From positions 62,001-126,000 of the IMG/VR virus record IMGVR_UViG_3300020477_000014: DNA of 64,000 nt; one strand, given 5' to 3'. Source of the DNA: a virus. The translations under genes and the position numbers were made by a program. The first letter of the stretch is position 1. Each line of letters opens with the position of its first letter. Of this stretch, positions 32,401-56,509 are shown one piece after another. The notes below the pieces were generated by a model. That model had not been told where the DNA came from. It was given only the letters and a program-made list of their open reading frames with translations, and made no database searches.

Positions 32401-32548
32401 TTTAGAGGGTTTTATTCGTATTTTGACACTAATTAAGATGTATTTTAAGAACGTTCTTCTCATCTCTCATCTTGATTCGCTTAAAGATTGTGTTGATCAG
32501 CAGATTGTTATAGAGAAATACAAAGATCAAGCAAGGGTTAATCAATGA
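29441..32548 (+). CDS. Fused SbcD (Mre11)-SbcC (Rad50) nuclease/ATPase
   Basis: One 1,035-residue protein joins both subunits. The N-terminal calcineurin-like phosphoesterase has DTH (Asp8, His10), GD (43-44), GNHD (78-81), YHG (His148) and GDIH (181-184). The C-terminal SMC-type ATPase has Walker A GKNFSGKS (397-404), long coiled coils, a hook CGDSYPTC (Cys714, Cys721), the ABC signature SGSEKT (947-952) and Walker B LFILDEP (973-979). T4 encodes these as separate genes 47 and 46, essential for recombination-dependent replication and host DNA breakdown. The start is TTG with a strong GGAGGG site 3 nt before it, fixed because DTH begins at residue 8. The stop overlaps the next ATG by 4 nt. 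The hook pair has six residues between the cysteines instead of the classic two. Confidence 0.93.
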   Translation: MKFAHISDTHIKNLKYHFEYREVFRQLYERLRQEEVDYIIHCGDIAHTKTQISPEFVEMCSQFFRSLAAIAPTYIILGNHDGNLKNSSRQDALTPIVEALNLPDLHLLKNSGETHIDDTFCLNVLSVFDRGNWTNPTNPDKINIALYHGSISRSRTDMNWVMEIGEDTLDIFKPFDFAMLGDIHRRQFLDEEGRIWYAGSTVQQNHGETNDKGILIWDITSKDDWDIEPIVLRNPKPFTTIQLTPTGRMPPRVNIPTGARLRLVSNNNLPLGTMRRAMEIAKHRFKPESISFLNRAAGQRGNVEEIADTLKTENLRDPKIQEQLIREYLKEYQAPEDMLEKVFEINRHYNKLAENSEDISRNINWKLRSFKWDNLFNYGTQNSINFDNLNGIIGIFGKNFSGKSSIVDAALYTLFNTTSKNERKNLNVINQTANKCCGELVIEVGEKVYTIHRQSEKYTKRLKGEETLEAKTDLNFEVYDNITGETTSLNGNTRNLTDANIRKHFGSLEDFSVSSLASQHGSLAFIDEGSTRRKEIIAKFLDLEVFDKKFKLAKEDSVDMKVLLKKHQDRNFDEEIEEIDDRLRGYRQSVEENRAMCLQLRAELKKIDASIATIDETIGAIPNEYIDIARLIKLQQQKENTIASLHQKIVEDSKVIDLKKQEIRASKELLSDIDFEELQSQQLQIEELRQKEKEYIQELQDIEKKRKLLDGIPCGDSYPTCKFIRDANIAVVSKDLVEGDLNYVGTQLEKLAPDDVPGRIEEYINIQAVIDEAHKMVADLSLRRERNKGLKLSHEAKLHATEAKIEEYNSNKEAIENLERLLQMKVDHDLMAVTKEEKICECDEQTLELVKLVGSCEQQIEDLANQKNEHKELQESFSAYDLFMRCMHPNGIAYDIIKKKIPVINQEIAKILTNIVEFEVIFESNGNKFDIFIKHPKYEARPIEMASGSEKTMAAMAIRLALLSVSSLPKGDLFILDEPGTALDEENLEGFIRILTLIKMYFKNVLLISHLDSLKDCVDQQIVIEKYKDQARVNQ

Positions 32549-33696
32549 GCAAAAAGAAAAAAGAAGCTAAGAACGAGTTTGATTTTCTGCCACCGGCAGA
32601 GCCACCACCATCTTTCGTACAAGAGAAAGACACATACCACGAAAAAGTGGAAGCTGAAGACTTTGGAATGGTGGAAGATTTTGGACTCCAAATGGAATAT
32701 GCAGATGAAGATCTCCTTCCAGATAATACCGCGCCATCTTCGCTAAATATCGGATTTGTGGGTGTCGGCGGTGGTGGCAACAAAATGGCCAATGCATTTT
32801 TGCAGCTTGGTTTTAATAAAACGCTTTTGGTTAATTCTACAGGAAAAGACATCCCTAAGAATGTAGCTGAAGAACACGTATGTCTTATTCCCGATTCAGA
32901 TGGGATCGGCAAGAATATTGAATATGGTAAAGAAATACTTTCTCAGAACGGCGCAGTCGTAGAAGACGCATTGCGAATTAGGTTTGGGAAAGTCGATTGG
33001 TTATTTGTTTTTGCTGGCGGTGGTGGTGGCACCGGATCGTCAGTTGCAGCACTTCATAATGTTTTTGAGCGATATATGCAGTCGGTTCAGTCGACCGGTA
33101 AGGTCGTTTATATAGTTTCATGGCCGACTGCCCAAGAGGCACTAAACCCTACTATTGCCAAAAACGCACTCACCCTCCTTAATGATGTGTCTGTCTATCC
33201 TCACTTTGTATTGGATAATGAAAGAGCTACGCGGCTTCTGCGTGGTAGGATCGGGATGCTTGGTTTATATCCCGTTGCTAACACACAATTTGCCAAGTCA
33301 CTAGCTCAGGTGCTCAAACTCTCAGATGAAGATTCGCCGATCCAGTCTTTCGACTCAAAAGATTTGGAAACGTGTCTCGGAAACAACGGCCGAGGCTTTG
33401 TGGGATCGACAATGATTAAAGATCCGAACACTGCAAAGCTTGGGTCGGTGATTCTTCACAACTGTATGAACCGCTCTCCTTGTCCTCCGCCGAAAGGAAA
33501 GGCAGCAGCCGGCTCTCTCGTATTGGTGGCTTCCGAAGAAATGGTTGCAGATCCTCGCATCAGCAAACATTTGGAATCTGCGATCGCATACGTAGGTGGT
33601 CGATGTGAAACACTCTTTTCGGGAGTATATGTTCGGCAGAACGTACCTGGGTTGATTGCTATACTAGGTATGAATGGATTACCTAGTGGAGAATAA
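32545..33696 (+). CDS. FtsZ/tubulin-like GTPase
   Basis: 383 residues. After an acidic, Pro-rich extension (1-65) come the T1-type loop GVGGGGNK (73-80), the tubulin/FtsZ signature AGGGGGTGSS (157-166), a guanine-contact-like LDNER (Asn225) and an H7/T7-like QSFDSKDLETCL (267-278). In the last, Asp270 and Asp273 keep the D-x-x-D spacing of the FtsZ catalytic loop. A C-terminal FtsZ-like domain follows (SLVLVASEEM, AIAYVGGRCETLFSGVYV). It should therefore bind GTP, polymerise and hydrolyse GTP; activity is inferred. It is translationally coupled to the SbcDC fusion (ATGA overlap) and is 2 nt before the next gene. Phage tubulins (PhuZ) centre the replication compartment in phiKZ-like phages, but no nucleus-shell protein is visible here. 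Confidence 0.88.
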   Translation: MSKKKKEAKNEFDFLPPAEPPPSFVQEKDTYHEKVEAEDFGMVEDFGLQMEYADEDLLPDNTAPSSLNIGFVGVGGGGNKMANAFLQLGFNKTLLVNSTGKDIPKNVAEEHVCLIPDSDGIGKNIEYGKEILSQNGAVVEDALRIRFGKVDWLFVFAGGGGGTGSSVAALHNVFERYMQSVQSTGKVVYIVSWPTAQEALNPTIAKNALTLLNDVSVYPHFVLDNERATRLLRGRIGMLGLYPVANTQFAKSLAQVLKLSDEDSPIQSFDSKDLETCLGNNGRGFVGSTMIKDPNTAKLGSVILHNCMNRSPCPPPKGKAAAGSLVLVASEEMVADPRISKHLESAIAYVGGRCETLFSGVYVRQNVPGLIAILGMNGLPSGE

Positions 33697-33698: not shown

Positions 33699-34421
33699 AT
33701 GAAACTAATAATGGAAAATTGGAACAAGTTCGTGACCGAGGAAGAAGCCGAAGATCCGTCGACTAATCTGATCGAATTGCTTAAACAAGCATGGGAGAAT
33801 ACTTCTGAGGCACACCTTGCCAAAGGTTTTGGACAACGGTCTCCCGGTGGTGCAGGTAGCACTTTTGATGAAGGAACAACTTTGGATACGCTTAAGGACG
33901 CCTCATGGCAGCCTTTTGAGCATAAATATGTAAGACAAAATCCTGAAAACGGGTACCCAAAAGCATTTAAAGCAGATATTGGCGGAGTTTTGGGGATGCT
34001 GCCGGTTTCTGCGTTAGCTGAATCTAATCCAAATATGAAGGTGCGCTTTCAGCCGGCACATATGGGTCAAGCAAAAACACCAGACGGAGAAACGGTTTAT
34101 GAAGTTGTTACATCCTTTGAAGGTGGTCGACCACAAATGAACATGACAACATTGCTAATAGGCCCGAAATGGTATCCGGGTCATGCAAAAGATGACGATA
34201 AGCCAGTCATTTGGACTTTCTATCCCGGTGAGCCGACTCCACCTCCCAATCCAAAATCCCCCAGATATATTCTTGAGAAAGATATCACCAAATATACCAC
34301 CGACAGCGTTGACTCTGGTTTTAAGGATGAGGAAGGGAATTCAATGGCAGCTTACATAGGTACGATTGGGGATGCAGCGAAGTTGGGTTATGGCAACATT
34401 AAACATGTAGAAGGAAACTAA
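33699..34421 (+). CDS. Unknown protein with putative capsid-targeting-like N-terminus (240 aa)
   Basis: Starts MKLIMENWNKFVTEEE, strikingly like the start of the gene at 35187 (MKLIIEGWRGYLSE) and in style like the T4 internal-protein targeting peptide MKTYQEFIAE. The rest is globular with GPKWYPGHAKDDDKPVIWTF near residues 151-170 and a Pro-rich loop; I know no family for it. It sits 2 nt after the FtsZ-like gene and 2 nt before the next. A role as a packaged internal protein is inferred from the N-terminus only. Confidence 0.85.
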   Translation: MKLIMENWNKFVTEEEAEDPSTNLIELLKQAWENTSEAHLAKGFGQRSPGGAGSTFDEGTTLDTLKDASWQPFEHKYVRQNPENGYPKAFKADIGGVLGMLPVSALAESNPNMKVRFQPAHMGQAKTPDGETVYEVVTSFEGGRPQMNMTTLLIGPKWYPGHAKDDDKPVIWTFYPGEPTPPPNPKSPRYILEKDITKYTTDSVDSGFKDEEGNSMAAYIGTIGDAAKLGYGNIKHVEGN

Positions 34422-34423
34422 CC

Positions 34424-34900
34424 ATGAAAATCACAAAAGCACAACTTAAAAAACTTATCGCCGAAGAACTTGAAGAGATTCGCGTTGGCGGCATGGGAGG
34501 TTATCTCCCGGGAGAAACCGGAGGCATGCGTGGACGCGTTCGCGCGGATGTTCCTGGTACAGAAGAGTCTCCTTGTGCCATGGCAGCAGCCGAAGAGCCT
34601 CCCGATCTCGAAACACGTGTGGCGGCTATCGAAGACAAGCTTGATATGATCTTGTCTCAATTGCAGATATCAGAAGAAGCCAATCGCACAGCTAAAGGAA
34701 ATGTTACCCAGGCTGCTCGCGAAAAGTATGCGACTGTCGGTGATGATGGGTTTCCCATTTTTGATAAGAAGTCTGCGAAAGCGGCGATAGATTTGCGAGG
34801 CCATGCGCCCGAAGCAGATCGATCAAAGATTATTAATAAGGCTGCCAAGCGCGCCCCTGAAGCTGCCAAGAAAGCAAGAGAAGCTGACAAAAAGAAATGA
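34424..34900 (+). CDS. Small charged protein, putative prohead-associated (158 aa)
   Basis: N-terminus MKITKAQLKKLIAEELEEI parallels the next gene (MKVSKSKLEQIIREELKSV) and contains an I-A-E sequence of the (L/I)-x-E type cut by T4 gp21. The middle has a short helical heptad stretch (VAAIEDKLDMILSQLQISEE, about residues 67-86), and the C-terminal 55 residues are Ala/Lys-rich (KAAKRAPEAAKKAREADKKK). Stop and next ATG overlap by 4 nt. No family recognised; possible DNA-associated internal protein from its basic tail. Confidence 0.82.
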   Translation: MKITKAQLKKLIAEELEEIRVGGMGGYLPGETGGMRGRVRADVPGTEESPCAMAAAEEPPDLETRVAAIEDKLDMILSQLQISEEANRTAKGNVTQAAREKYATVGDDGFPIFDKKSAKAAIDLRGHAPEADRSKIINKAAKRAPEAAKKAREADKKK

Positions 34901-35190
34901 AGGTTTCTAAGTCCAAACTTGAACAGATCATTCGTGAAGAACTAAAGAGCGTTTTATCTAAAACTACGTCACCGTTTCAGGTACCGACTTATCTTATTCA
35001 AGATCCCGAAGGTGATGCGATAGATGACGAGGAAGATATCGAAGAAGTGCTTGGTCCCGATGATGATGTGGGCGACTATATAGATGATTTCTCTGATTCA
35101 AATGCTCCGTCTTTAAAAGGCAAGAGCAAGGAGAAGAGAAAAGAGATGGCTATAGCCGCTCACTATGCTGCGAAGGAAAAAGACTCATGA
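34897..35190 (+). CDS. Small acidic protein, unknown function (97 aa)
   Basis: MKVSKSKLEQIIREELKSV shares the amphipathic N-terminal pattern of the preceding gene. The middle is very acidic (DDEEDIEEVLGPDDDVGDYI, about residues 43-62) and the C-terminus is basic with Lys-Glu repeats. It is coupled by 4-nt ATGA overlaps to both neighbours, so it is part of the same operon. No function can be assigned. Confidence 0.8.
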   Translation: MKVSKSKLEQIIREELKSVLSKTTSPFQVPTYLIQDPEGDAIDDEEDIEEVLGPDDDVGDYIDDFSDSNAPSLKGKSKEKRKEMAIAAHYAAKEKDS

Positions 35191-35954
35191 AGTTGATAAT
35201 TGAAGGTTGGCGGGGCTACCTATCTGAACTTAAGCGCGCCGAAGACGAACAACAAGTTGGGCCCATTTATGATAATGTTGCGCTTCTTGTCGCCTTATCA
35301 AACATCGATCAGATCGATGAGGCTAGTTGGAAAAAAGGACTCGCCGGTCTTGGTTTGGCTACGGCACTTGGCGTGGGCGGTGGAGCGGGAATCGGTTCGG
35401 CAATAACAAGCCATGATGGCACGTCCAAAGCTCCACAAGTCCACCAAGATGTTGGCGGCTTGACTGATATGCCCACCTTCGGAAAAAACGACAAGGCCGG
35501 CGATGAGATGCCGATTGACAAAAACTGGACCAGATCTCCCACGCGCGGAGAGTATGTCTGGGTATCCCCGGATCAGTTTGAGGGAGGCTTTGTTCTTCCG
35601 TTGGGCAACGTCACCGTAGATGATTATAGAGAGTATCTATCTGCGTGGAATATCGACGATCTCTATAAACTGCTTTATGGAAGCAGTGGGCAATGGTCTT
35701 ACACCAAAGAAGCTCCCAATTTACCTAAAACTTTCGACAACCATCCTGGTTCTGGGCTCGAAATGTTGCCTCCTGACTGGTCGATCGCTTTTGATGTTTA
35801 TAAAGAAAAAGTGGAAGGAGCCACTGAACACATTCAAGATCGCATTAGTGATGCAGAAGACGGCGGTCTTTCAATCGCGAAAGGACTTGGGCACGAGGAT
35901 GTGGAAAGCTTACTTCAAGATCTTCAGAAATTAAACAGATCTGTTGAATATTAA
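35187..35954 (+). CDS. Unknown protein with glycine-zipper segment (255 aa)
   Basis: Begins MKLIIEGWRGYLSE, the same N-terminal tag type as the gene at 33699. Residues about 50-73 (GLAGLGLATALGVGGGAGIG) form a Gly/Ala-rich hydrophobic segment that could insert in a membrane. A globular acidic region with aromatic motifs (GEYVWVSPDQFEGGFVLPLG) follows. It closes the operon that starts at the TTG of the SbcDC fusion; the next promoter begins 2 nt after its stop. An injected or internal capsid protein is one possibility; unproven. Confidence 0.83.
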   Translation: MKLIIEGWRGYLSELKRAEDEQQVGPIYDNVALLVALSNIDQIDEASWKKGLAGLGLATALGVGGGAGIGSAITSHDGTSKAPQVHQDVGGLTDMPTFGKNDKAGDEMPIDKNWTRSPTRGEYVWVSPDQFEGGFVLPLGNVTVDDYREYLSAWNIDDLYKLLYGSSGQWSYTKEAPNLPKTFDNHPGSGLEMLPPDWSIAFDVYKEKVEGATEHIQDRISDAEDGGLSIAKGLGHEDVESLLQDLQKLNRSVEY

Positions 35955-35955
35955 C

Positions 35956-35984
35956 TTGACAACTGTGGAATAATATGATATATT
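35956..35984 (+). promoter_or_regulatory. Sigma70-type extended -10 promoter of the lysis/packaging operon
   Basis: TTGACA (35956-35961), 17-bp spacer, TGA then TATATT (35979-35984). The predicted start near 35991 coincides with AGGAG, the ribosome-binding site of the gene at 36006. Fourth member of the identical promoter set. Confidence 0.82.
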
Positions 35985-36005
35985 ATTAATAGGAGTGGAA
36001 AAAAG

Positions 36006-36164
36006 ATGAAAAGAAATATTATTTTAGGACTATTTTTTGTTACAGGTGTGTGTGTTAGTTCGTATCTCACATATGAGGCATTAAACAACAATGACATTGG
36101 CTCAACTTACGAGAACACCGAAACGATTAAAAACATTTCAGATTACGAAAGGAGTAATAAATGA
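36006..36164 (+). CDS. Small membrane protein (52 aa)
   Basis: MKRNIILGLFFVTGVCVSSY: basic start, then a hydrophobic segment (residues 5-20), then a short polar, mainly extracytoplasmic tail rich in Asn and Thr. Strong AGGAG site 10 nt upstream. The cysteine at 16 lacks a good lipobox (Val before it), so an anchored membrane protein is more likely than a lipoprotein. Its stop overlaps the next start (ATGATG). It opens the lysis-like cassette; it may be an anti-holin or accessory membrane protein, by position only. Confidence 0.75.
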   Translation: MKRNIILGLFFVTGVCVSSYLTYEALNNNDIGSTYENTETIKNISDYERSNK

Positions 36165-36358
36165 TGCAATATGCACAAGGGAAACTTGATAAACTAGTTG
36201 AGAAGGCAATTTCTCGAAAGTTTTTGGTGTGGTTGACTGCCACAGCTTTGATGGCAACGTCCGGATTAGAATCCGGAGATTGGGTTATCATCTCTGCGCT
36301 TTATATTGGAGGCCAAACTGTTATCGATGGGATTGCAAAATTAAAAGGTCTTGAATGA
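36161..36358 (+). CDS. Holin-like small membrane protein (65 aa)
   Basis: Two hydrophobic segments: residues about 20-36 (FLVWLTATALMATSG) and 41-57 (WVIISALYIGGQTVIDG), with a charged N-terminus and short basic end (AKLKGLE). Size, topology and position directly before a spanin-like gene fit a holin that forms lesions in the inner membrane to time lysis. The ribosome-binding site is AAGGAG. No endolysin gene is adjacent in this window, which is the weak point of the assignment. Confidence 0.72.
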   Translation: MMQYAQGKLDKLVEKAISRKFLVWLTATALMATSGLESGDWVIISALYIGGQTVIDGIAKLKGLE

Positions 36359-36747
36359 TCACGGTTAACTTTTTGCAAATTTTGTCTCTCTTCAAAAAGT
36401 ATTGGAGAGAGATTTTAATTATTGTGTTGTCTGTCATTGTTGTTGGTAAAATGAGAATAGATCACAACAGGATAGAAAAAACTTACAAAACTACCCAGGA
36501 AGAATTGCAAAAACAAATTACTGAGCTTAACAGGATCCACGTGCACGAAATGAAAGAGAAAGAGAAAGCAATAAAACTTTACAAAGAGACACTGGTTAAT
36601 ATAGAAAAAGATTATGAGGAACAAAAAAAAAAGAATAAAGAACTGAGCACCCAAAGAAAAACAAAACTAGAAAAACAATTCACTCGTGATAAGGATCAGC
36701 TAGCACATGAAATTAATAAAACTTTTGGCATTAAATATATTCCTTAG
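36355..36747 (+). CDS. i-spanin-like (Rz-type) protein (130 aa)
   Basis: A single N-terminal membrane segment (residues about 20-31, ILIIVLSVIVVG) is followed by a long charged coiled coil (about 40-125), the topology of Rz-type inner-membrane spanins that help breach the outer membrane at the end of lysis. The start overlaps the holin-like stop by 4 nt. The last 41 nt overlap the next gene in another frame, recalling the Rz/Rz1 arrangement. Confidence 0.72.
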   Translation: MITVNFLQILSLFKKYWREILIIVLSVIVVGKMRIDHNRIEKTYKTTQEELQKQITELNRIHVHEMKEKEKAIKLYKETLVNIEKDYEEQKKKNKELSTQRKTKLEKQFTRDKDQLAHEINKTFGIKYIP

Positions 36748-37135
36748 TTCAACATCATACGCCACCGAAGGAAAATTTACATTTTTGGGACAAGGACAAT
36801 GTGCCTTATACGAGGGGGGTCTTTTTGATCCTTCTGCCATGGCACAAATGGTTGTTGTGGTGGAGGATTTGCAGACTGATTGTGATTTAAGAATGGAATA
36901 TGAATTAGACAAATCGGCCACACAACATCAGTTGGAAATAGAAAACCACCACATAGCCTATAGAACCCTTCAGAAGAAATATGATTTACTTGAAAATTAT
37001 AGTAATACTCAAATTACAAATCTTCAAAATGCTTTGGACTCTATTTCATCTACTAACAAGTGGCGGTGGTTTGGTGGGGGAATCGTAGTGGGCGTTGTTA
37101 CAACTTATGCTGGTTATCGAATGTTTAATGAGTGA
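36707..37135 (+). CDS. Exported protein with C-terminal membrane anchor (142 aa), lysis cassette
   Basis: A typical signal peptide (residues 1-19, cleaved near SYA/TEG), a globular part with two cysteines (FLGQGQCALYEGG, LQTDCDLRM), a coiled-coil-like region (about 70-110) and a C-terminal hydrophobic segment (WFGGGIVVGVVTTYAGYRMF, 118-137). This layout resembles a periplasm-spanning protein, and the 41-nt out-of-frame overlap with the i-spanin-like gene supports a joint function. It is not an Rz1-type lipoprotein because no lipobox is present. A unimolecular-spanin-like role is an inference. Confidence 0.7.
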   Translation: MKLIKLLALNIFLSSTSYATEGKFTFLGQGQCALYEGGLFDPSAMAQMVVVVEDLQTDCDLRMEYELDKSATQHQLEIENHHIAYRTLQKKYDLLENYSNTQITNLQNALDSISSTNKWRWFGGGIVVGVVTTYAGYRMFNE

Positions 37136-37517
37136 TAAATATAATAAAATAGCTGCTATTGAACAAGCCATATCTAAAAAGTATGGGGACGATGCCATAC
37201 AAAACCCAAAAGCAAACTGGGATGAAGAAAAAGAACGAGAATACTTAGAGCAATCAAAAGAGTTTTATCGCAAAGTTCGTCGAAATGACGAGTGGCAAGA
37301 AAAAGTAGAGGTAAATGGTGTAAAGGTTTCAAAAAAACTACTTAATAGAGAATCTTTAATTTCTTGTCCTATTTGCGGGAATTTCCCCAAAGGCGTGATG
37401 GATGATGTGTGTTTATCAAAATTTGATTGCTGCAACAATTGTTATGTAAAATATGTAGAAGGACGAGAAGATAGATGGCTAAAAGGATGGAGACCCGATA
37501 ATGGCAACAACTTATGA
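37128..37517 (+). CDS. Zinc-ribbon protein, unknown function (129 aa)
   Basis: The start MSDKYNKIAAIEQAISKKYG is preferred over upstream in-frame ATGs because it overlaps the previous gene by only 8 nt and gives a soluble, typical N-terminus. Two cysteine pairs, CPIC (about residue 87) and CCNNC (about 107), flank a short loop and should bind zinc. It is acidic and basic in patches. It overlaps the next gene by 17 nt and stands three genes before the terminase. I recall similar proteins in marine phage contigs but no assigned function. Confidence 0.8.
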   Translation: MSDKYNKIAAIEQAISKKYGDDAIQNPKANWDEEKEREYLEQSKEFYRKVRRNDEWQEKVEVNGVKVSKKLLNRESLISCPICGNFPKGVMDDVCLSKFDCCNNCYVKYVEGREDRWLKGWRPDNGNNL

Positions 37518-38034
37518 AATTATACAAGGATTGGCACAAGCTGCCGCAAATTCCTATGATGGAGCACTTGGCGAAGATTATGAGCCTGTAAATGATGGCA
37601 TTCTTCGAAGAGAAGAAGGGAACGCCCTCATTGATCAACGCGTGATGGATGGATTTAATGTTAAATTTTATGGCAACATGATGTGTCTTAGTTATCAAGC
37701 CGAGATCAAACTTAAAGAAGTATACGCCGGCGGATTTGAAGAAGAGACGGATCAGCGCCTGACTGATATTGCTGGATGGCTCAAGAAAGAGTACAAAAAG
37801 ATTACAGGCAACAGCGTTACTCTGACTGCCAAAGGCGAGGTGGACATTCGAGTAGAAAATTCTTCACGAGTACGATCGTGGGTGACAGCAAAAAAACATT
37901 ATCAAATTGGCGGTCTGAAAGAAGATATGGCTATCGAACAACCATCTGAAGACAGGGTAGAAAACAGTTGGCAAACCTTTTTGGGCCAGGGCGGATGGGG
38001 GAAGCGCCCCAAAAATGATACGAGAAAAAAATAA
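37501..38034 (+). CDS. Conserved-type protein upstream of terminase (177 aa)
   Basis: MATTYEIIQGLAQAAANSYDGA: helical N-terminus, then an alpha/beta region (EIKLKEVYAGGFEEETDQRL) and a short C-terminus with WQTFLGQGGWGKRPKND. Its position 8 nt before the large terminase would fit a small terminase subunit, but I see no helix-turn-helix or extended coiled coil typical of that role. It is left as unknown. Confidence 0.8.
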   Translation: MATTYEIIQGLAQAAANSYDGALGEDYEPVNDGILRREEGNALIDQRVMDGFNVKFYGNMMCLSYQAEIKLKEVYAGGFEEETDQRLTDIAGWLKKEYKKITGNSVTLTAKGEVDIRVENSSRVRSWVTAKKHYQIGGLKEDMAIEQPSEDRVENSWQTFLGQGGWGKRPKNDTRKK

Positions 38035-38042
38035 GATGACAC

Positions 38043-39626
38043 ATGAGCTTCAAGTTAACGAAAAAACAACAAGTTTCTGAAATTATTAAATGTGGAAAAA
38101 ACCCTTCTTATTTTTTGAAGACATATGCTCGCATTTCTCATCCTATGCATGGATTGATTTTATTTGATACCTATGATTTTCAGGACGATCTTCTTAAAGA
38201 TTTTAATGATTACCGATTTAATGTTATATTAAAAGCTCGACAGCTTGGTATTTCAACCATTACTGCCGGCTACATTGTTTGGATGATGCTTTTTCATCGA
38301 GATAAGAATATTCTCGTAATGGCTACCAAATTTGCGACAGCAGGTAACTTAGTAAAGAAAGTCAAGAGTATTATGAAGAATCTTCCTGTTTGGTTGACGA
38401 TCGCCAAAATTGATGTCGACAACAGAACGTCTTTTGAACTTTCAAACGGATCTACAATTAAGGCTACTTCAACATCTGGCGATGCTGGTCGTTCGGAAGC
38501 CTTGTCTTTGCTTGTTTTAGATGAGGCGGCACATATCGAGGGTCTCGAAGATTTGTGGACAGGTCTGTACCCCACGTTGTCTACTGGTGGTCGATGTATT
38601 GCTTTGTCTACCCCGAATGGTGTCGGAAACTGGTTTCATAAAACCTGTGCTGATTCGGAGTCTGGTGCTAATAATTTTAAATTAACAGTATTGCCTTGGA
38701 TTGTTCATCCGGAACGGGATGAAGAGTGGTTTAAGAAAGAAACCAAGAACATGTCCCGCCGCCAAATCGCCCAAGAACTTGAGTGTAATTTTAATACATC
38801 TGGAGAAACCGTTATCGATCCAGATTGCATGGAGTGGTTATTAACAAATGTCCGAGAACCTAAACACAGAACAGGGTTTGATAGAAACTTTTGGATCTGG
38901 GAAGAATTTGATCCTACTTGTAATTACCTTATCGTTGCTGACGTGGCTCGCGGAGACGCTGCTGACTATTCCACTTTCCATATTCTTAAGTTAGAGACAA
39001 TGGAGTTTGTCGGCGAATATCAAGGTAAACCAACACCGGACCTATATGCCAACATGCTTAATCAAGTAGGAAGAGAGTTCGGAAACGCCATGATGGTAGT
39101 AGAAAATAACAACATTGGTTACACGGTTTTAGATAAATTGTTAGAGCACGGATATCCCAACCTATATCACTCTATTAAGTCGACCCACGAGTATATCGAA
39201 CAACATCAAGCCGAAATTAGAACCAACTCAGTAGCGGGATTTACGACGACGATGAAAACCCGACCCCTAATAATTGCAAAATTAGAAGAGTTTATAAGAA
39301 ATAAACTAATTACTCTATATTCTTCTCGAACTATTAACGAGATGAAGACATTTATTTGGAGTCATGGAAAACCACAAGCAATGAAAGGATATCACGACGA
39401 TTTAATTATGGCACTTGCGATCGCCTGTTGGGTGCGCGACACCGCAATTCAATCTAATGCTCGTGATTTAAACTATCAACGTGCTTTTGTGGATGCTATC
39501 TATACGACTAGAACAACTATGAATACACAAATAAAAGGACAAATAGGCTACAAAGCAGACAATTTTGCAGATTCTGTAAATGAAGCTAAAAGTCTTTACG
39601 ACGAATTTAAATGGATTATAAAGTGA
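38043..39626 (+). CDS. terL: Terminase large subunit (T4 gp17-like)
   Basis: 527 residues. The ATPase has an adenine/Walker A-type segment LKARQLGIST (63-72) and Walker B LLVLDEAAH (156-164). The RNase H-like nuclease follows, with VADVARGDAADYS (Asp300) and GYHDDLIMALAIA (Asp452/Asp453). This enzyme cuts concatemeric DNA and pumps it into the prohead through the portal. The length is a little below T4 gp17 (610). It lies 8 nt after the previous gene and 8 nt before the portal gene, the usual packaging order. Confidence 0.95.
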   Translation: MSFKLTKKQQVSEIIKCGKNPSYFLKTYARISHPMHGLILFDTYDFQDDLLKDFNDYRFNVILKARQLGISTITAGYIVWMMLFHRDKNILVMATKFATAGNLVKKVKSIMKNLPVWLTIAKIDVDNRTSFELSNGSTIKATSTSGDAGRSEALSLLVLDEAAHIEGLEDLWTGLYPTLSTGGRCIALSTPNGVGNWFHKTCADSESGANNFKLTVLPWIVHPERDEEWFKKETKNMSRRQIAQELECNFNTSGETVIDPDCMEWLLTNVREPKHRTGFDRNFWIWEEFDPTCNYLIVADVARGDAADYSTFHILKLETMEFVGEYQGKPTPDLYANMLNQVGREFGNAMMVVENNNIGYTVLDKLLEHGYPNLYHSIKSTHEYIEQHQAEIRTNSVAGFTTTMKTRPLIIAKLEEFIRNKLITLYSSRTINEMKTFIWSHGKPQAMKGYHDDLIMALAIACWVRDTAIQSNARDLNYQRAFVDAIYTTRTTMNTQIKGQIGYKADNFADSVNEAKSLYDEFKWIIK

Positions 39627-39634
39627 GATAACTT

Positions 39635-41635
39635 ATGGCACCTCCCTTAAAAAATGGCAAAAACCCTGCGAATGATCAGTCTCAGTTATTTAAAGCACTA
39701 ACTAGGTTGTTCTCCGGGCCGATTATAAATTATAGATCGCAGTCCGGGCGCCGTATTAGGCGTCAACATTTGGACAAATTTTCGTCCCGCTTTAAGACCG
39801 CTTCCGGACAACAATTCAAAAAGGCTCTCTACAATCCTTTAGATGTTATTGCCTCCAACGCGATGCAGAACCAACGCCGCGGCGAAAGATATATTGATTT
39901 CGATCAGATGGAATACATGCCCGAGATTGCCTCTACTATGGACATCTATGCTGATGAGATGACAACTTATTCTGAGTTACGTCCAATGCTTAATATAAAA
40001 TGTGCCAACGAAGAGATAAAAGCGGTTTTGGCTACTTTGTATAGCAACATTCTTAATTTAGAGTACAACTTGTTTGGGTGGTGCCGTACGATGTGTAAGT
40101 ATGGTGATTTTTTCCTTTATCTAGATATTGATGATAAATATGGAGTAAAATCTGTTATAGCTCTCCCATCGGCTGAAATAGAAAGATTAGAAGGCCAGGA
40201 TGCAACCAATCCTAATTACATTCAATATCAATGGAATTCTGCTGGAATGACTTTTGAGAATTGGCAGGTCGCACACTTCCGCATTCTTGGTAACGACAAA
40301 TATGCCCCATACGGAACTTCCATTCTTGAGCCGGCTCGTCGTATTTGGCGACAACTTGTTCTTATGGAAGATGCTATGATGGCTTATCGTGTTATTCGTT
40401 CTTCAGAAAGGCGCGTGTTCAAAATTGATGTCGGCGGCATTAATCCGCAAGATGTTGAACAATACATGCAGAAGATCGTTACTCAACTTAAGAGGCATAG
40501 CGTTGTGGACCCCACCACTGGGCGTATCGATTTGCGTTACAATCCAATGTCCATTGAGGAAGATTATTTTATTCCTGTTCGTGCTGGTTCTGTTACAGAT
40601 ATTCAAAGTCTTGCCGGCGCCACAAATATTACAGCTATCGATGATATTAAGTATTTGCGTGATAAATTGTTCTCTGCATTAAAGGTACCTCAGTCTTATC
40701 TTACGATGGGCGAAGGGGCAGAAGAAGACAAAACAACGCTAGCGCAAAAAGATATTCGTTTTGCTAGGACTATACAAAGACTCCAACGGGTCGTTATAGC
40801 TGAGCTAGAAAAGATCGGAATTATCCATCTTTATACTCTCGGTTTTCGCGGCGACGATCTCTTGTCGTTTAATCTTTCACTTAATAATCCTTCGAAGATC
40901 GCAGAACTCCAAGAACTTGAGCACTGGAAGCAGAAATTTGATATTGCAGCCTCTGCCACAGAGGGGTACTTTTCTCGTCGCTGGGTTTCCGAGCACGTGT
41001 TCGGCATGTCTCACGAAGATTTCGTGAGAAACCAGAGAGAGCTTTATTTTGATCGCAAACAAGACGCTGCACTCCAAGCGGTGGCGGAAGCTGCTGCTGG
41101 TGCTGAACTAGGTGGCGGTGATCTTGGCGGTGATCTTGGTGGCGACTTAGGCGGTGAGGCTGGTGCTTTTCCGCCCGGCGATGAATTAGCCGGCGATGAT
41201 ATCGGCGGTGGTCAAGAAATGCCTGCCGGCGAAGCTGGCGCGCCAGAAAGCCCATTGTTGGCGGTACCTCCTGGTTCTCGCAAGGCGCCCACAGTTAAAT
41301 CACTAGAGCCTCAAGCTAAGGGCAAGCGCCACTTTCCCACGACAGTCGATAAACGTCAAGCTGGTGCGCGCTCTCGGTCCTATAGCGCACATGGCGGTAG
41401 TCAAAAAGGTAGTTCGGGTATTCGTAATGTGGTACCGGGATATTCTGATTTGAAAGGCATGGCGCGCATGGATGGCATCTCCGCTGGGATTTATGAACAA
41501 GAGGTGCCTACTTATAATATAAGAGAACAAACTGAAGAGAATCAAATATTTCAACGTAGCAACGATATTCGGCTTTTAATTGAGGATTTAGAAAATAATT
41601 TATTGGAGAATGAAGATAATGAAAATAAAACATAA
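39635..41635 (+). CDS. Portal protein (T4 gp20-like)
   Basis: 666 residues. The core shows gp20-type features: IDFDQMEYMPEIASTMDIYA early, a clip/stem region with KYLRDKLFSALKVPQSYLTM and DKTTLAQKDIRFARTIQRLQ. It forms the dodecameric DNA channel and docks terminase and neck. The C-terminal 180 residues are unusual: a Gly/Asp-rich repeat (GGDLGGDLGGDLGGEAG, about residue 500) and basic, Ser-rich linkers follow. The end overlaps the next gene by 17 nt. Confidence 0.93.
   Translation: MAPPLKNGKNPANDQSQLFKALTRLFSGPIINYRSQSGRRIRRQHLDKFSSRFKTASGQQFKKALYNPLDVIASNAMQNQRRGERYIDFDQMEYMPEIASTMDIYADEMTTYSELRPMLNIKCANEEIKAVLATLYSNILNLEYNLFGWCRTMCKYGDFFLYLDIDDKYGVKSVIALPSAEIERLEGQDATNPNYIQYQWNSAGMTFENWQVAHFRILGNDKYAPYGTSILEPARRIWRQLVLMEDAMMAYRVIRSSERRVFKIDVGGINPQDVEQYMQKIVTQLKRHSVVDPTTGRIDLRYNPMSIEEDYFIPVRAGSVTDIQSLAGATNITAIDDIKYLRDKLFSALKVPQSYLTMGEGAEEDKTTLAQKDIRFARTIQRLQRVVIAELEKIGIIHLYTLGFRGDDLLSFNLSLNNPSKIAELQELEHWKQKFDIAASATEGYFSRRWVSEHVFGMSHEDFVRNQRELYFDRKQDAALQAVAEAAAGAELGGGDLGGDLGGDLGGEAGAFPPGDELAGDDIGGGQEMPAGEAGAPESPLLAVPPGSRKAPTVKSLEPQAKGKRHFPTTVDKRQAGARSRSYSAHGGSQKGSSGIRNVVPGYSDLKGMARMDGISAGIYEQEVPTYNIREQTEENQIFQRSNDIRLLIEDLENNLLENEDNENKT
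41112..41160 (+). repeat. Short degenerate Gly-Asp coding repeat in the portal gene
   Basis: Tandem copies of a 12-nt unit ggcggtgatctt with changes encode GGDL repeated. It lies in the portal C-terminal extension and could vary in length between relatives through slippage. Confidence 0.6.
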
Positions 41636-42446
41636 CAAAAAAAGAAACACTGCCTTTGTTTTTGAATCGTTGATTAAAGAAATAACACTTGCCATATTAA
41701 AAGAGGATGCGCCAAGGAAAGATAAAGCCGTCTCCATAGTGAGGAAACATTTTGCTCCCGATTCTATTCTTTCCCGACAACTACAGTGCTATCGCTCGTT
41801 GTATGAAAATCAAAATACAGACAGGATAACTTCTGAAAAGATAATGCGAGAATCGAAAATGGCAAATCGCCTTATTGATCCCGACGGGCTTTTTAAGAGC
41901 CAAACTAGCTTAATCAAAGATATAAATAAAGAACTAGATCCATCGATTTTTAATAATTTTGTTCCTAACTATAAAACTTTGGCAACGATTGATCAGATAT
42001 TTTCTGGAAAATTGTCACCGCGAAACACAATAATCTTAGAAAATCAAATTATTTCTAATATGATCAAGCCATCACAAACTAAAGATCAAATAGAGACCAT
42101 TGACGATTTAGCAGTTACTTCTTTCATAAAAAAGTTTAACACCAAGTACGAGGGTGGTTTGTTAGAAAACCAAAAGTCTTTGTTGAATCATTATATTTCA
42201 TCTTTTAGTGATAATTCTTTAAGTTTGAAAATGTTTTTAAATGAAGAATTATTACGGCTAAAAACAAGACTTAAAGAGGCTCTTGAGATAGAAGAAATTC
42301 GTAGCGATGAAGACATGCTTGCCAAAGCCGGCTTAGTTATTCAAAAGCTTGACGAGTTTAAAAATTGTCAATTAAGCGACACCGTAGTGTTGACAGTTTT
42401 GAAGACTCAACAACTAGAAAAGGAAATTTTCAACAATGACAATTAA
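41619..42446 (+). CDS. Unknown protein between portal and protease (275 aa)
   Basis: The start at 41619 (MKIKHNKKRNTAFVFESLIK) is chosen over an ATG nine bases upstream because the GGAG site at 41605-41608 is then 10 nt away. The protein is helical, Lys/Asp/Asn-rich, without membrane segments, and has two long helical regions. It overlaps the portal gene by 17 nt and the next gene by 11 nt. In T4 small head-core genes occupy this position (67, 68), so a core or head-assembly role is possible; no sequence motif proves it. Confidence 0.85.
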   Translation: MKIKHNKKRNTAFVFESLIKEITLAILKEDAPRKDKAVSIVRKHFAPDSILSRQLQCYRSLYENQNTDRITSEKIMRESKMANRLIDPDGLFKSQTSLIKDINKELDPSIFNNFVPNYKTLATIDQIFSGKLSPRNTIILENQIISNMIKPSQTKDQIETIDDLAVTSFIKKFNTKYEGGLLENQKSLLNHYISSFSDNSLSLKMFLNEELLRLKTRLKEALEIEEIRSDEDMLAKAGLVIQKLDEFKNCQLSDTVVLTVLKTQQLEKEIFNNDN

Positions 42447-42978
42447 GGTCACCATTGGAAAGAACGAAACTAAGGCGACTGTTCGCCTCGAAATGGATAT
42501 CCGAAAATCGATTAATGGAGATTTGATGATTTTTGATCATGGCGATATCGACATTGTTTTGTCTACCACTTCTAATAGGGTATTGGCTTTTCCTAAAGAA
42601 AATATGAATGATTTGGTATATGGCGCTCAAAATAGACTGTTTACTCATCTTCATAGGCGCGGCGTGGTTATACCCGAATCTATTCAAGCTGCATCTTTTG
42701 CCGGCGCTTTCGAAGCAACGTTGCAGAAACCATTTACTGAAAGTATTAGCGCGGCTAAGTTTGCTTTAATTAATATTTCGCAATTTATCAACGAAGAGCG
42801 CCCTTATTTTGAGTCGACTGAGGCAATAATTTCTATGACGGATGATGAATTAGTCCACCCAGATAAGACAGACTCTACTGAGCTTGGGGACGTCCCACAG
42901 GCAGCCCAAAAGGGTTCTATACGCCCGGGCTATTCTCGAGATCCTTATGCTCTCAATTATTTATATACGCTAGAATAA
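42436..42978 (+). CDS. Unknown head-region protein (180 aa)
   Basis: MTIKVTIGKNETKATVRLEM begins a beta-rich N-terminal half (SINGDLMIFDHGDIDIVLST). A helical part follows (SIQAASFAGAFEATLQKPFT) and then a C-terminus with Tyr repeats (SRDPYALNYLYTLE). No export signal. Overlaps the previous gene by 11 nt, with AAGGAAA as ribosome-binding site. I do not recognise a family; head assembly is suggested by neighbours only. Confidence 0.82.
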   Translation: MTIKVTIGKNETKATVRLEMDIRKSINGDLMIFDHGDIDIVLSTTSNRVLAFPKENMNDLVYGAQNRLFTHLHRRGVVIPESIQAASFAGAFEATLQKPFTESISAAKFALINISQFINEERPYFESTEAIISMTDDELVHPDKTDSTELGDVPQAAQKGSIRPGYSRDPYALNYLYTLE

Positions 42979-42989
42979 GAGGTCTCAAA

Positions 42990-43361
42990 ATGGAGCTTAT
43001 ATATTTTATATTAATAGCATATGGATTAACTCAAATTGTGGTTTACGGGGATATGCCTCTGATAAGGAAGTTGCGCCCCTCTAAAGAGTTTTTAAAGGGG
43101 TATGGTAAACTTTTTCATTGTCCTATGTGTATGGGTTTCCATGTTGGATGGCTTTTAATGTTACTTTCTCCGTACACTGAACTATTTAGTTTTGATGTTT
43201 CTATAGCCAACTTTTTCCTTTTGGGGTGGTTGTCGTCGGGAACGTCATATATTCTCAACATGCTTATTGGAGATCGGGGAATTAAAATTTTACGTAACGT
43301 AGAGGTAGTTAAAGATGAAGAATGGTATTTACATGACAAAGTGGATGATTCAGCCAGTTAG
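42990..43361 (+). CDS. DUF1360-like membrane protein (123 aa)
   Basis: Three hydrophobic stretches (residues about 1-18, 50-62 and 72-95) and the motif FHCPMCMGFHVGW, resembling the C-x-x-C-x-G-F/W signature I associate with DUF1360 membrane proteins seen in phages and Bacillus. Function unknown. It ends the portal sub-operon and is followed by a hairpin terminator, so it is transcribed with the packaging genes. An alternative is a small membrane protein for superinfection exclusion; that is speculation. Confidence 0.78.
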   Translation: MELIYFILIAYGLTQIVVYGDMPLIRKLRPSKEFLKGYGKLFHCPMCMGFHVGWLLMLLSPYTELFSFDVSIANFFLLGWLSSGTSYILNMLIGDRGIKILRNVEVVKDEEWYLHDKVDDSAS

Positions 43362-43389
43362 GCGATGCAAGTCAGGCTGTTGACTCACG

Positions 43390-43408
43390 CGGGTAGCGCC
43401 CGTTTTTT
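43390..43408 (+). terminator. Weak intrinsic terminator after the portal block
   Basis: CGGG (43390-43393), loop TAGCG, CCCG (43399-43402), then six T (43403-43408). The stem is only 4 bp, so partial read-through into the protease gene is likely. Confidence 0.55.
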
Positions 43409-43425
43409 AAAACAAGGATAGCAAA

Positions 43426-44031
43426 ATGGCTAAGAAACTTTTACGAGAGTATTATCAATTGTGCGAGGGAGGCGTTTGTCAAGATTTATTAACTGAAGAA
43501 GAAAAACGTTTCGTTGCCAATGGTGGCATGATCTTATCGGGTATTATGCAAATGGCAGAAACAGTCAATGGCAATGGTCGCATTTATCCCCAAGCCGTCT
43601 TGATGAATGAAATCAAGAATTATCAAAAACTAATTAAAGAAAAGAGAGCTTTGGGAGAATTAGATCATCCTGAAGATTCTGTTATAAATTTAAGAAATGC
43701 TTCTCATTTGGTAACGTCATGCTGGATGGAAGAGAAAAATGTAATGGGGAAGATTCAAGTGTTGAATACGCCATCTGGCAAAATTTTGCAAGAGCTTGTT
43801 CGTGGAGGTGTCAGTATAGGGATTTCATCAAGAGGAATGGGCTCCGTTACAGAAAGTAACGGACAAACAATTGTAGAAGACGACTTCCAGTTAATTTGTT
43901 TTGACATGGTTTCTGAACCATCCACCCCTGGCGCCTTTATGATGCGCGAAGCAAAAGACTATGACAACCAAGTGTTTACAAGAGCCGATCGAATCAACAG
44001 GCTGTTAAACGAGGTTTTGGGAGATGAATGA
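43426..44031 (+). CDS. Prohead protease (T4 gp21-like)
   Basis: 201 residues with the order of gp21-type serine proteases: GELDHPED (His81), GVSIGISSRGMG (Ser134/Ser135 region) and LICFDMVSEPSTPGAFM. This enzyme is activated inside the prohead, cleaves scaffold, capsid protein and internal proteins, usually after (L/I)-x-E, and clears space for DNA. It lies upstream of two small proteins and the bS21-like gene. The stop overlaps the next gene by 8 nt. Possible targets with such sites are the capsid protein and several small proteins in this window. Confidence 0.88.
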   Translation: MAKKLLREYYQLCEGGVCQDLLTEEEKRFVANGGMILSGIMQMAETVNGNGRIYPQAVLMNEIKNYQKLIKEKRALGELDHPEDSVINLRNASHLVTSCWMEEKNVMGKIQVLNTPSGKILQELVRGGVSIGISSRGMGSVTESNGQTIVEDDFQLICFDMVSEPSTPGAFMMREAKDYDNQVFTRADRINRLLNEVLGDE

Positions 44032-44734
44032 TTGGTCCAGTTTTCCTAAAGATAAACAACTGATGGACTCATGGAGAAAACATTTAAACGAGGGACCTTT
44101 GGATGCTATGGACGATTTCACCGATTGGTGGCGAGATAAAGAAGAGTACGACTTCGGATATAAGGGCGCTCAGCAAGGTGTTCCCCAAGACGATGTTCGC
44201 TTACCGGCGCCAGCCGCGGACGTGGAGTGGGTACCAAATGCTGAAGTAGAGTGGGAAGAAGATGAGCCCGATCTAGAAACTCTCCCTTATTTGTTGCACC
44301 ACTCTTTCGGTTCTACCCAAACCAAAAGCGACGTCTATAAGACATATAAAAATCGATATAATAGAGCCTTTAAGGAAGGCAACATTGAAACAAAAAATCA
44401 GTTTGAAAAAGACTTGACTTATTTTGTTAATTTTGTAGGGCCCTTTTTGCGGTATTATGATAAACGCAAGAGTGTTTCTGAAGAAAAAGATATTAAGGAT
44501 ATTAAAAAAATGATCAGCGTCTCTCATCGATTCGCTCAAGACAATGAGAATATATCAAATATCATAAACACCTACCGAGCAACAAAAATAGAACACCCAA
44601 ATAGTGCACAATCAGTAGCAAGAATGGCAAAACTCTTTGCTGACACGGCGGCTAAAAGACATTTGGGAAATTTGATAACTTATATTAAAAAGAGAAATAG
44701 CAATGAAAAAACAAGATCTAAAGAAACTCATTAA
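44024..44734 (+). CDS. Unknown helical protein after the protease (236 aa)
   Basis: The N-terminus contains LMDSWRKHLNEGPLDAMDD, similar in pattern to the W-x-K-(F/Y)-x-x-E tags at 33699 and 35187 and including an L-N-E sequence. The C-terminal 120 residues are highly helical and charged, rich in Lys, Asn and Tyr. It overlaps the protease by 8 nt and the next gene by 32 nt. A core/internal head protein is a reasonable inference; no family recognised. Confidence 0.82.
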   Translation: MNDWSSFPKDKQLMDSWRKHLNEGPLDAMDDFTDWWRDKEEYDFGYKGAQQGVPQDDVRLPAPAADVEWVPNAEVEWEEDEPDLETLPYLLHHSFGSTQTKSDVYKTYKNRYNRAFKEGNIETKNQFEKDLTYFVNFVGPFLRYYDKRKSVSEEKDIKDIKKMISVSHRFAQDNENISNIINTYRATKIEHPNSAQSVARMAKLFADTAAKRHLGNLITYIKKRNSNEKTRSKETH

Positions 44735-45140
44735 ACCATTAGTAAAAGAATGTATTCATGAAGTTCTTATCGAAGAGGGGCACCTTTCTGATATCGTAAG
44801 TGAAGTTGCAAAGGGGATGAACAGACAGCCCCTATTGGAGTCGCGGAGCCCAAAACCCTCACGCCGCCAGGAAAAAGAAGTAGAGCGCGAAAAAACACAA
44901 TACACAGAACGAAGGCGCCGCAAATTAACCGAACAGCGACAACAGTTGGCTGATGCGATTGGGCGCGACGCCTATAATGGTGTTAATTTATTTGAGGGAA
45001 CGGAGCCTTTGCGCCGTGGTGGAAAAGCCGGCGGAGATCCAGAAATGCCAGATGTGCTAGGGGATGACCACCGAGACTCCGGGGTCGATATTAGTTCTTT
45101 GTTGGGCGGAGCCACTAAAGTCTGGAAAGCAATCAAATAA
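44703..45140 (+). CDS. Small charged head-region protein (145 aa)
   Basis: MKKQDLKKLIKPLVKECIHE starts an amphipathic N-terminal helix related in pattern to those at 34424 and 34897. A very basic stretch follows (SPKPSRRQEKEVEREKTQYT and ERRRRKLTEQRQQ), then an acidic C-terminal part (DVLGDDHRDSGVDIS). It starts 32 nt before the preceding stop. No recognised family. It may be a prohead core or DNA-associated internal protein. Confidence 0.8.
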   Translation: MKKQDLKKLIKPLVKECIHEVLIEEGHLSDIVSEVAKGMNRQPLLESRSPKPSRRQEKEVEREKTQYTERRRRKLTEQRQQLADAIGRDAYNGVNLFEGTEPLRRGGKAGGDPEMPDVLGDDHRDSGVDISSLLGGATKVWKAIK

Positions 45141-45439: not shown

Positions 45440-45793
45440 ATGAGTTCAAACATTTATACAGCAGGGTTAAGAAATGTCGGTAGTTATCAAGTGGCTGGCA
45501 TACCCTATCTTACAGCGTCTTATCTTATTGAGCAAGAAAAGCAATTTACATTTCCGTATGTTACTAAAAACATTTTAGTTCAAAATACAGGCTCTAATGA
45601 GTTGTATTTGTATTTTTCTGGTTCTTCAATAAACAAGTTGATAATTCCTCCGGGAAAAACTATAAATATGGATGTGAAGTGTGTGCTTATTTATGCATCG
45701 GCATCTAGTCAGACAGGCATGCAGATGGCAGCCGAATTGACCACCATAGGCACTAATCACATGTATTCATTAGATGGATTGGAGGGAGTATAG
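45440..45793 (+). CDS. Small virion protein, 'GLRNVGSYQV' family, first copy (117 aa)
   Basis: The N-terminal signature GLRNVGSYQVAGIPYLT, then FPYVTKNILVQN, INMDVKCVLIYAS and the C-terminal MYSLDGL. The next two genes carry the same four landmarks. All-beta composition suggests a small jellyroll or sandwich. It is probably a decoration or fibre-attachment protein given the third family member's LamG insert. Ribosome-binding site is poor (no clear GGAG). Ends with a 1-nt overlap with the next gene. Confidence 0.85.
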   Translation: MSSNIYTAGLRNVGSYQVAGIPYLTASYLIEQEKQFTFPYVTKNILVQNTGSNELYLYFSGSSINKLIIPPGKTINMDVKCVLIYASASSQTGMQMAAELTTIGTNHMYSLDGLEGV

Positions 45794-46161: not shown

Positions 46162-46163
46162 GC

Positions 46164-55324: not shown

Positions 55325-56509
55325 ATGTCAAGTTTACTTAAAGAAGCGATTGTCGATGCGGCCGCTCTTAAAGAGGCAGCGTTGAAAAACGCAGAAGCAG
55401 CAATTATCCAAAAGTATTCTGCTGAAGTAAAAGACACAATTGATAAATTGTTAGAACAAGATGATTTAACTGCCGAACTAGGCGGAGACCTAAGCGGTGA
55501 AGAAATGGGCGACCCCGGCATGGGTGAAGACCCTGCGGTGGCTGCGGATGCTCCACTGGAAGAGGTTGAAGAAGTTACTGAAGACGATATTCCTTTGGCT
55601 AGCACTAATGGGCTTTCTAAAGAGGTGGGCGTTGGTTTAAACGAAGCCCCTACCGAGGGAGAAAACGTCGAGTTTAATGTCAACTTAGAAGCTCTCCATG
55701 AAGCAATTCAAGAACTGCAAGCGGAATTAGATGAAGAGATTGAAATTACCGAGGAAGATTTAGAAGGATTGCTGGAAGACCCGGAACAACTTGCAGAAGC
55801 AGACCCAACAACTGCCTCTGCTGCGGCAGAGGATGCTGACGTTAACGCAATGGATAGCCTGGAAGACACACCTAATCCACAAAAAGACGAAGAAGGCGAA
55901 GCTGTTGATGCTTCTGTGATGGGCGAAAACGAAGTTGAAGAGATTTCGGAAGATCTCATCGATGCAGTAATGGAAAAACTTACAGTCGATATGGGAGCTA
56001 CCCTATCCGGATGGGCGGGACGCTCATCTGAGTCTATGAAGTGGGAGATTGAAAAAGCTCTTGCACATAGAAGAAGCTCCGATTTCGATGAAGAATTTGA
56101 AGATTTGAAAAAAGCTCACAAAGAATTGGTTTTCGAAAATAACCAAATCAAAGAGCATAATGATAAATATAAGCAGACAGTTGCGCAACTTAAGGAGAAT
56201 CTACAGGATATTAATCTCTCCAACGCGCGACTGCTTTACACGAACCGTGTTCTTAGGAATACCTCCTTGAATGAGCGACAGAAACAGAAAATTGTCGAAG
56301 CTATTTCAAACGCCGGTTCAGTTACGGAGGCAAAGACAATATACAAGACCCTTCAGAGCACAATGGAGACCAAGCAAACAAAGCCCGGTCCACAATCGTT
56401 GAGCGAAGCAATTGGTAGTCGGCCTTCTTTTGTTCGTGCTACTCGCAAAGAAAGTAAACCTGTTGATACTTTAAGCGATAGGATGAAGAAACTAGCTGGA
56501 ATTAAATAA
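55325..56509 (+). CDS. Prohead scaffold/core protein (T4 gp22-like)
   Basis: 394 residues with a strongly acidic central region (about 40-210) and a long coiled coil (about 255-345, EFEDLKKAHKELVFENNQIK onward). The basic C-terminus ends RATRKESKPVDTLSDRMKKL. This composition and its position directly before the major capsid gene are typical of T4 gp22-type core proteins that nucleate the prohead and are later degraded by the protease. The N-terminus MSSLLKEAIVDAAALKEAAL is an amphipathic helix. Ribosome-binding site is TAGGAGAG. Confidence 0.85.
   Translation: MSSLLKEAIVDAAALKEAALKNAEAAIIQKYSAEVKDTIDKLLEQDDLTAELGGDLSGEEMGDPGMGEDPAVAADAPLEEVEEVTEDDIPLASTNGLSKEVGVGLNEAPTEGENVEFNVNLEALHEAIQELQAELDEEIEITEEDLEGLLEDPEQLAEADPTTASAAAEDADVNAMDSLEDTPNPQKDEEGEAVDASVMGENEVEEISEDLIDAVMEKLTVDMGATLSGWAGRSSESMKWEIEKALAHRRSSDFDEEFEDLKKAHKELVFENNQIKEHNDKYKQTVAQLKENLQDINLSNARLLYTNRVLRNTSLNERQKQKIVEAISNAGSVTEAKTIYKTLQSTMETKQTKPGPQSLSEAIGSRPSFVRATRKESKPVDTLSDRMKKLAGIK

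Follow-up and report, generated by a model that had tools for sequence, protein, structure and literature searches.

We analysed a 64,000-nucleotide stretch of viral DNA, bases 62001–126000 of the 189,712-bp virus record IMGVR_UViG_3300020477_000014, referred to below as the window; coordinates are those of the window unless called genome coordinates, which refer to the whole record. The source is a marine T4-superfamily phage of about 190 kb, and a T4-type portal, an S77 prohead protease and the gp23 capsid protein are all encoded within the window according to Pfam and PHROG profile matches. Genes starting at 33699, 34424, 34897, 35187 and 44024 encode proteins beginning with short amphipathic segments, hereafter tags, that fall into two classes, A and B. 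The first four form a variable island (33699–35954) between an FtsZ/tubulin-like gene and a gene for a small membrane protein (Table 1). An earlier reading of this DNA from its letters alone (the sequence-only reading) had quoted N-terminal peptides at these five positions, likened them to the T4 capsid-targeting sequences, and proposed that the otherwise unrelated proteins carrying them are packaged into the prohead, trimmed and possibly injected into the host. The peptides are indeed the starts of open frames, and the tags are quite probably capsid-targeting propeptides of the T4 internal-protein type.

Profiles of the tags were trained on relatives only, in order to avoid circularity, and 43,848 internal segments of the genome's own proteins served as the null set. 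With these held-out profiles, 14 of the 197 proteins of the phage match against 0.39 expected, 12 of the 14 outscoring every null segment; a separate regular-expression scan agrees (14 tagged, about 0.4 expected). One of the two weak matches, at genome 162532, is probably false. Class A tags are carried by genes at genome 2610, 3459, 4737, 5552 and 6430, beyond the window, and at genome 96424 and 96897 within it; class B tags, by genes at genome 2947 and 9866 beyond the window and at genome 95699, 97187 and 106024 within it, the gene at genome 176127 being a probable class B member. Imperfect tags are present on a 1146-residue protein (genome 171291) and on a Nudix protein (genome 9154), whose homologues in relatives have good tags. 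The noted resemblance of N-termini is therefore beyond chance and the tagged set is real, but its extent had been underestimated: the genome-wide scan that the sequence-only reading had called for adds at least seven tagged genes outside the window (and probably 176127), two classes are present, and relatives have a third.

The consensus is MKITKxQLKxIIKE/E for class A (here and below the slash marks the predicted cut) and MKLxxENWxxF(L/V)xE for class B. Counted back from the cut, P7 and P4 are bulky in both, P3 is I/L/V and P1 is E. Among 460 distinct class A tags the start methionine lies 13 residues ahead of the conserved Glu in 96%, P7 is L/I, P4 is I/L in 92%, P3 is I in 95% and P1 is E in 94%; the 130 class B tags have W at P7 (96%), F/Y/H at P4 (90%), L/V/I at P3 (91%) and E at P1 (79%). 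As the tags were picked by profiles, these column counts describe the rule and do not test it. In T4 IPIII, which begins with MKTYQEFIAE, residues 4 and 7 direct targeting and residues 8 and 10 direct processing, with gp21 cutting after L/I-x-E (PMC9026906). Counted back from the cut, T4 residues 4, 7, 8 and 10 are P7, P4, P3 and P1, the same spacing as in classes A and B. A class B-like protein of one relative begins with MDKWFRYINE, having 10 residues to the Glu as in the T4 tag, and its likeness to the T4 letters is one of spacing only. When the short consensus tags were compared with named phages by tblastn no match was obtained, the queries possibly being masked as low complexity.

The third form, C (MARRKNTKRIDPRYFLNE), was found in 30 proteins of relatives with 16 bodies. 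Written as MARRKNTKRIDPRYF(L/M)(N/D)E (L041:80, L528:7130 and others), it precedes 16 unrelated bodies, ends with (L/M)-x-E, shares homologous bodies with classes A and B, and is not in the list of this genome. Residues 13–48 of the relatives' tagged proteins also have a second shared motif, (D/E)EG followed by two hydrophobic residues and (D/S/G), found in 24 of the 461 proteins of class A and 12 of the 130 of class B, versus 7 of 2738 untagged ones; it resembles a second x-E/G site or a second docking element. Similarly spaced N-termini of their own are shared in Microcystis phage Mel-JY01 (MIKLKSLLQE; genome 60276–62718, L136) and Flavobacterium phage immuto (MENFDLKKFLVE; genome 1803, 117587 and 118588). 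Each lineage may have its own tag spelling.

When N-terminal segments common to unrelated bodies were searched for without bias, one dominant group with 319 body groups emerged, which mixes the classes because of single linkage, and the next largest group had 9. C-terminal and mid-segment controls in the same search reached maxima of 13 and 10 body groups, mostly low-complexity or charged repeats. The same kind of blind search within T4 alone ranked at the top the proteins with MKTYQEFIAE or MKTFKEF, which we take to be the T4 internal proteins. With relatives included, class A comprises 465 proteins with 237 bodies, class B comprises 130 with 59, and all classes together comprise about 625 tagged proteins with about 300 unrelated bodies (groups by single linkage, one of them very large). 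Thirteen body groups carry more than one tag class, that is, homologous bodies swap tags.

The first gene past the FtsZ-like gene is tagged in 50 of 81 phages, these first genes forming 42 body clusters, and a tagged gene is among the first four in 67 of 81. Comparison of the gene at 33699 with relative L408 gives 44 of 48 identical bases in the tag and 10 of 27 immediately after it; in L408 the tag precedes a P-loop body (weak AAA_33 match) in place of that of the 240-residue protein. Small proteins that lack an A, B or C tag and begin with a Trp-rich amphipathic stretch, for example MNWLKSLWTTLVRKTS, recur in the island; they are encoded by the gene next to the FtsZ-like one (L497, L509, L529, L534 and others). 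At least 80 related phages of the T4 superfamily have the FtsZ/tubulin-like gene itself, with strong conservation (82–99%). Its family lies far from the jumbo phages, the setting from which tubulins of phages are best known.

Table 1. Tagged genes of the window, the borders of the island and genes of the head (window coordinates; a slash marks the predicted cut).
Feature	Coordinates	Strand	Tag or N-terminus	Evidence
Class B tagged protein, 240 residues	33699..34421	+	MKLIMENWNKFVTE/, bases 33699-33740	profile score 32.5 vs null maximum 9.6
Class A tagged protein, 158 residues	34424..34900	+	MKITKAQLKKLIAE/E, bases 34424-34465	profile score 39.4 vs null maximum 7.3
Class A tagged protein, 97 residues	34897..35190	+	MKVSKSKLEQIIRE/E, bases 34897-34938	profile score 36.0 vs null maximum 7.3
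Class B tagged protein, 255 residues, hydrophobic segment	35187..35954	+	MKLIIEGWRGYLSE/, bases 35187-35228	profile score 21.5
Class B tagged head-operon accessory protein, 236 residues	44024..44734	+	ends with WRKHLNE/, bases 44024-44092	profile score 30.5
Conserved head-operon protein	44703..45140	+	MKKQDLKKLIKPLVKE..., not a modular tag	unmatched by either profile
FtsZ/tubulin-like gene, left island border	32545..33696	+		Pfam Tubulin 2.4e-8, above cut-off; top PDB matches FtsZ
Conserved small membrane-protein gene, right island border	36161..36358	+		present after the island in most of 81 loci
Portal protein gp20	39635..41635	+		Pfam PF07230 1.8e-76
Prohead protease, gp21 type (Peptidase_S77)	43426..44031	+		Pfam PF03420 3.6e-31; phrog_207 head maturation protease 6e-55
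Probable scaffold	55325..56509	+		directly upstream of gp23; L/I-x-E-rich
Major capsid protein gp23	56531..58330	+		Pfam PF07068 5.8e-74

If a protease cutting after L/I-x-E meets the tagged proteins, their bodies should avoid this site. Counts were made with the first 42 residues excluded and one protein per body. Relative to expectation, the frequency of L/I-x-E is 0.85 in tagged bodies against 1.24 in untagged proteins (bootstrap difference −0.37, 95% interval −0.54 to −0.21), and after size matching the two values are 0.80 and 1.21. The same tagged bodies contain L/I-x-D, L/I-x-Q, L/I-x-K and VxE at 1.23–1.40 of expectation, [AFM]xE is not depleted in them, and LxE is the strongest tagged-versus-untagged depletion among 262 XxY pairs (z −5.7). 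Right behind the tag, at residues 16–42, L/I-x-E is enriched 1.8-fold, which is consistent with backup cuts of the kind suggested by giant-phage propeptides, known to carry repeated cut sites (PMC10052503). In the T4 control the cargo has 0.75 versus 1.26 L/I-x-E per 100 residues, and the mature parts of the two T4 MKTYQEFIAE proteins contain none.

The S77 protease encoded in the window is the proposed cutting enzyme of the tags, and its own N-terminus, MAKKLLRE, obeys the same cut rule. The gp23 propeptide is predicted to be cut after LLRE (residue 60, codon 56708–56710); this LLRE, followed by A or S, is conserved in the clade and aligns with FLTE, followed by A, of T4 gp23. The probable scaffold contains 17 L/I-x-E in 394 residues (4.3 per 100 residues, or 3.6 in the comparison with expectation, where its family stands at 1.63 times expectation), and its degradation by the protease is expected from this sequence. 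S77 is encoded in 16 of 20 long records found by the class A DNA pattern, and three of the four records without it also lack the portal and capsid genes. It is absent from all 16 random records, a weak control because these are shorter on average.

Among the individual tagged genes of the window, relatives of the protein at 33699 have the tag in common, not the body, and a whole-protein search of related loci found only the tag region elsewhere. Family, PDB and fold searches gave no match for the bodies of the proteins at 33699 and 35187, and the predicted structure of the former alone is poor (predicted local distance difference test score, pLDDT, 34). The family of the latter has a class B tag in this phage and class A tags in 23 of its 32 members. 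The gene at 44024 lies directly downstream of the protease gene, where a class B gene is found in 36 of 70 relatives, and the 211 residues of its protein past residue 25 contain no L/I-x-E. Its role as an essential scaffold was ruled out, because the gene is absent at that place in about half of the relatives and the 55325 family suits such a role better. The gene at 44703, also read as tagged on the letters alone, does not belong to the set: its conserved head-operon family has 59 direct homologues among the loci compared, and in all of them the N-terminus is joined to the same body. Derivation of the class A tags from this N-terminus was rejected as well (hhalign probability 1.8 in the profile comparison).

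Only about 5 of 120 body representatives have Pfam matches at 1e-3. These include a pentapeptide-repeat body (3.9e-32), a kinase-like body (9.2e-7, below the curated cut-off), a LigT/2H-phosphoesterase-like body (4e-4, below the cut-off) and a HAD-like protein. In relatives, tags are also found on Nudix proteins (this genome's homologue matches at 6.9e-23) and on HAD/polynucleotide-kinase-phosphatase-like proteins. By their sequence, the recognizable bodies would fit injected host-modifying factors. Tagged proteins of Mel-JY01 were guessed from sequence to be ADP-ribosyltransferases, and Pfam gave no support for this.

Several other genes of the record are mentioned here as separate observations. 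Three consecutive proteins of 117, 122 and 1617 residues, encoded at 45440–51017, have a common N-terminal pattern GL(R/N)NVGSYQVSG; it is probably a module by which fibre or decoration proteins attach. At one record end (genome 185027–189406, L008) about ten small genes with the common start K(I/V)GDLV appear to form a family of short proteins. Inspection by eye suggests an adenylosuccinate-synthetase-type enzyme (GDEGKGK) at genome 158769–159752 and a GroEL-type chaperonin at genome 167024–168595.

Packaging plus trimming of the tagged proteins is very probable. This part of the sequence-only reading is well supported, though not proven, by the T4 spacing, the gp21-type protease, the LxE site of the capsid protein, tag swapping and L/I-x-E avoidance. 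We infer the following course of events. Cargo would be docked onto the prohead core by its amphipathic N-terminal segment during assembly; the gp21-type protease would cut after (I/L/V)-x-E at the tag end, and often also at another L/I-x-E a short distance past the tag; the mature body would then remain in the head with the DNA and be delivered with it at infection. Injection of most of the cargo is reasonably likely by comparison with T4, and the name of effectors is given to the tagged proteins by the same analogy.

Some observations weigh against this interpretation. L/I-x-E shows no depletion in the mature capsid protein (1.51, based on one family), which is exposed to the protease as well, and other pairs (IxI, KxD) are depleted in tagged bodies too, with no apparent cause. 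The T4-type late promoter TATAAATA was sought upstream of the tagged genes and none was found. In one record (G013), no S77 or gp23 was found over 125 kb, although a T4-like portal and a plausible single tag are present. Lastly, T4's own tags fall below the threshold with the class A and B profiles; therefore, the likeness to T4 is in spacing and not in letters. The comparison with MKTYQEFIAE made in the sequence-only reading thus stands for the P7/P4/P3/P1 spacing and the L/I-x-E end and fails for the letters, likeness in which is not a defining feature of function.

The proteins might be packaged and trimmed and yet act inside the particle, in core assembly, DNA condensation or the setting of head size, instead of being delivered to the host. 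Some tagged genes do adjoin the protease in the head operon, and T4 IPIII may assist head assembly (PMC9026906). However, the bodies are extremely variable and exchanged at one locus, unlike structural parts, and several are enzyme-like (Nudix, HAD, kinase-like), and we consider such a role unlikely. A signal for localization or docking to some other structure unrelated to the head, such as the host membrane, the polymerase or the phage FtsZ-like filament, would agree with the modelling of the tag as a helix (with low confidence in that part of the model) and with the FtsZ/tubulin-like gene adjoining the main island. It would not account for the conserved (I/L/V)-x-E at the tag end or for the site avoidance of the bodies; moreover, tagged genes lie also far from the FtsZ-like gene, including the one beside the protease, and the blind search yields in T4 proven capsid-targeting sequences, which makes this reading highly improbable. 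The cassette exchange seen at the DNA level at the tag boundary could even suggest that the shared N-termini are functionless leftovers of duplication and mosaic recombination. We give this hardly any credence, since the spacing is conserved across differently spelled classes, homologous bodies swap classes and LxE is specifically depleted outside the tag, a combination that requires selection.

With capsid targeting as the preferred function of the tags, we lean, with some hesitation, towards a wider picture. A large marine T4-superfamily clade would use several interchangeable, differently spelled tags to arm its virions with a rapidly exchanged, injected arsenal of hundreds of families, mostly without assigned function, that can be read from the tag and the site avoidance. 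If the tags direct proteins into the head and are subsequently removed by cleavage, they can be used to list hundreds of candidate injected proteins in ocean phages. Hundreds of hypothetical genes would thereby become candidates that can be tested for action in the first minutes of infection, counter-defence proteins possibly among them. With several tag spellings under one spacing rule, what the prohead core recognizes also becomes testable, and protease-site avoidance in cargo bodies would be a sequence-only signal of phage-head contents.

Among named phages, the top matches of the capsid protein are Flavobacterium phage immuto, Microcystis phage Mel-JY01 and Rhodothermus phage RM378 (43–48% identity over about 60% of the length), whereas uncultured viral contigs supply hundreds of much closer relatives. 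In the host lookup a relative of the capsid gene was found in only two contigs of metagenome-assembled genomes, Acidiferrobacteraceae and Flavobacteriales. With these named phages and the Far-T4 phages (PMC4360716) the present phage shares the environmental T4-superfamily setting and the T4-like shell, portal and terminase, the Far-T4 link being tentative and based on capsid-protein matches. The same blind search yields smaller sets of similarly spaced N-termini in immuto and Mel-JY01 and no excess of them in RM378. A text search of the Far-T4 paper revealed no mention of internal proteins. The tag strings were not found in the literature searched, where subscription papers are thinly covered, so that novelty is weakly supported by this; searches on capsid targeting in marine phages brought up work on T4 and giant phages, and no cargo catalogue beyond the close kin of T4 and giant phages was found there.

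The ejection proteins of the giant phages phiKZ and SPN3US are likewise head proteins trimmed by a gp21-related protease (gp175/gp245; PMC10052503, PMC9026906). The phiKZ motif is S/A-x-E, whereas the tags described here have I/L/V at P3 and do not follow the S/A-x-E rule; most SPN3US propeptides comprise 111–254 residues, and the present tags are short. The T4 internal proteins IPI, IPII and IPIII and Alt (Tequatrovirus) are similar in having a short N-terminal tag on unrelated bodies with an L/I-x-E end, the P7/P4/P3/P1 spacing, a gp21-type protease, L/I-x-E-poor bodies and a variable cargo locus. The three T4 internal proteins each block a different restriction enzyme (PMC12373910). Packaging and injection, both predicted here, would be further points in common. 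The present system differs in the letters of the tags and in their greater length (usually 14 residues, in some cases 10–11), in having two mutually replacing classes plus a third in relatives, and in scale: each genome carries about a dozen tagged genes where T4 has a handful, and the clade as a whole has about 300 body groups. By its sequence features it is best filed as a new, strongly expanded form of the T4 internal-protein system, whose sequence-testable features it shares except for the letters of the tag.

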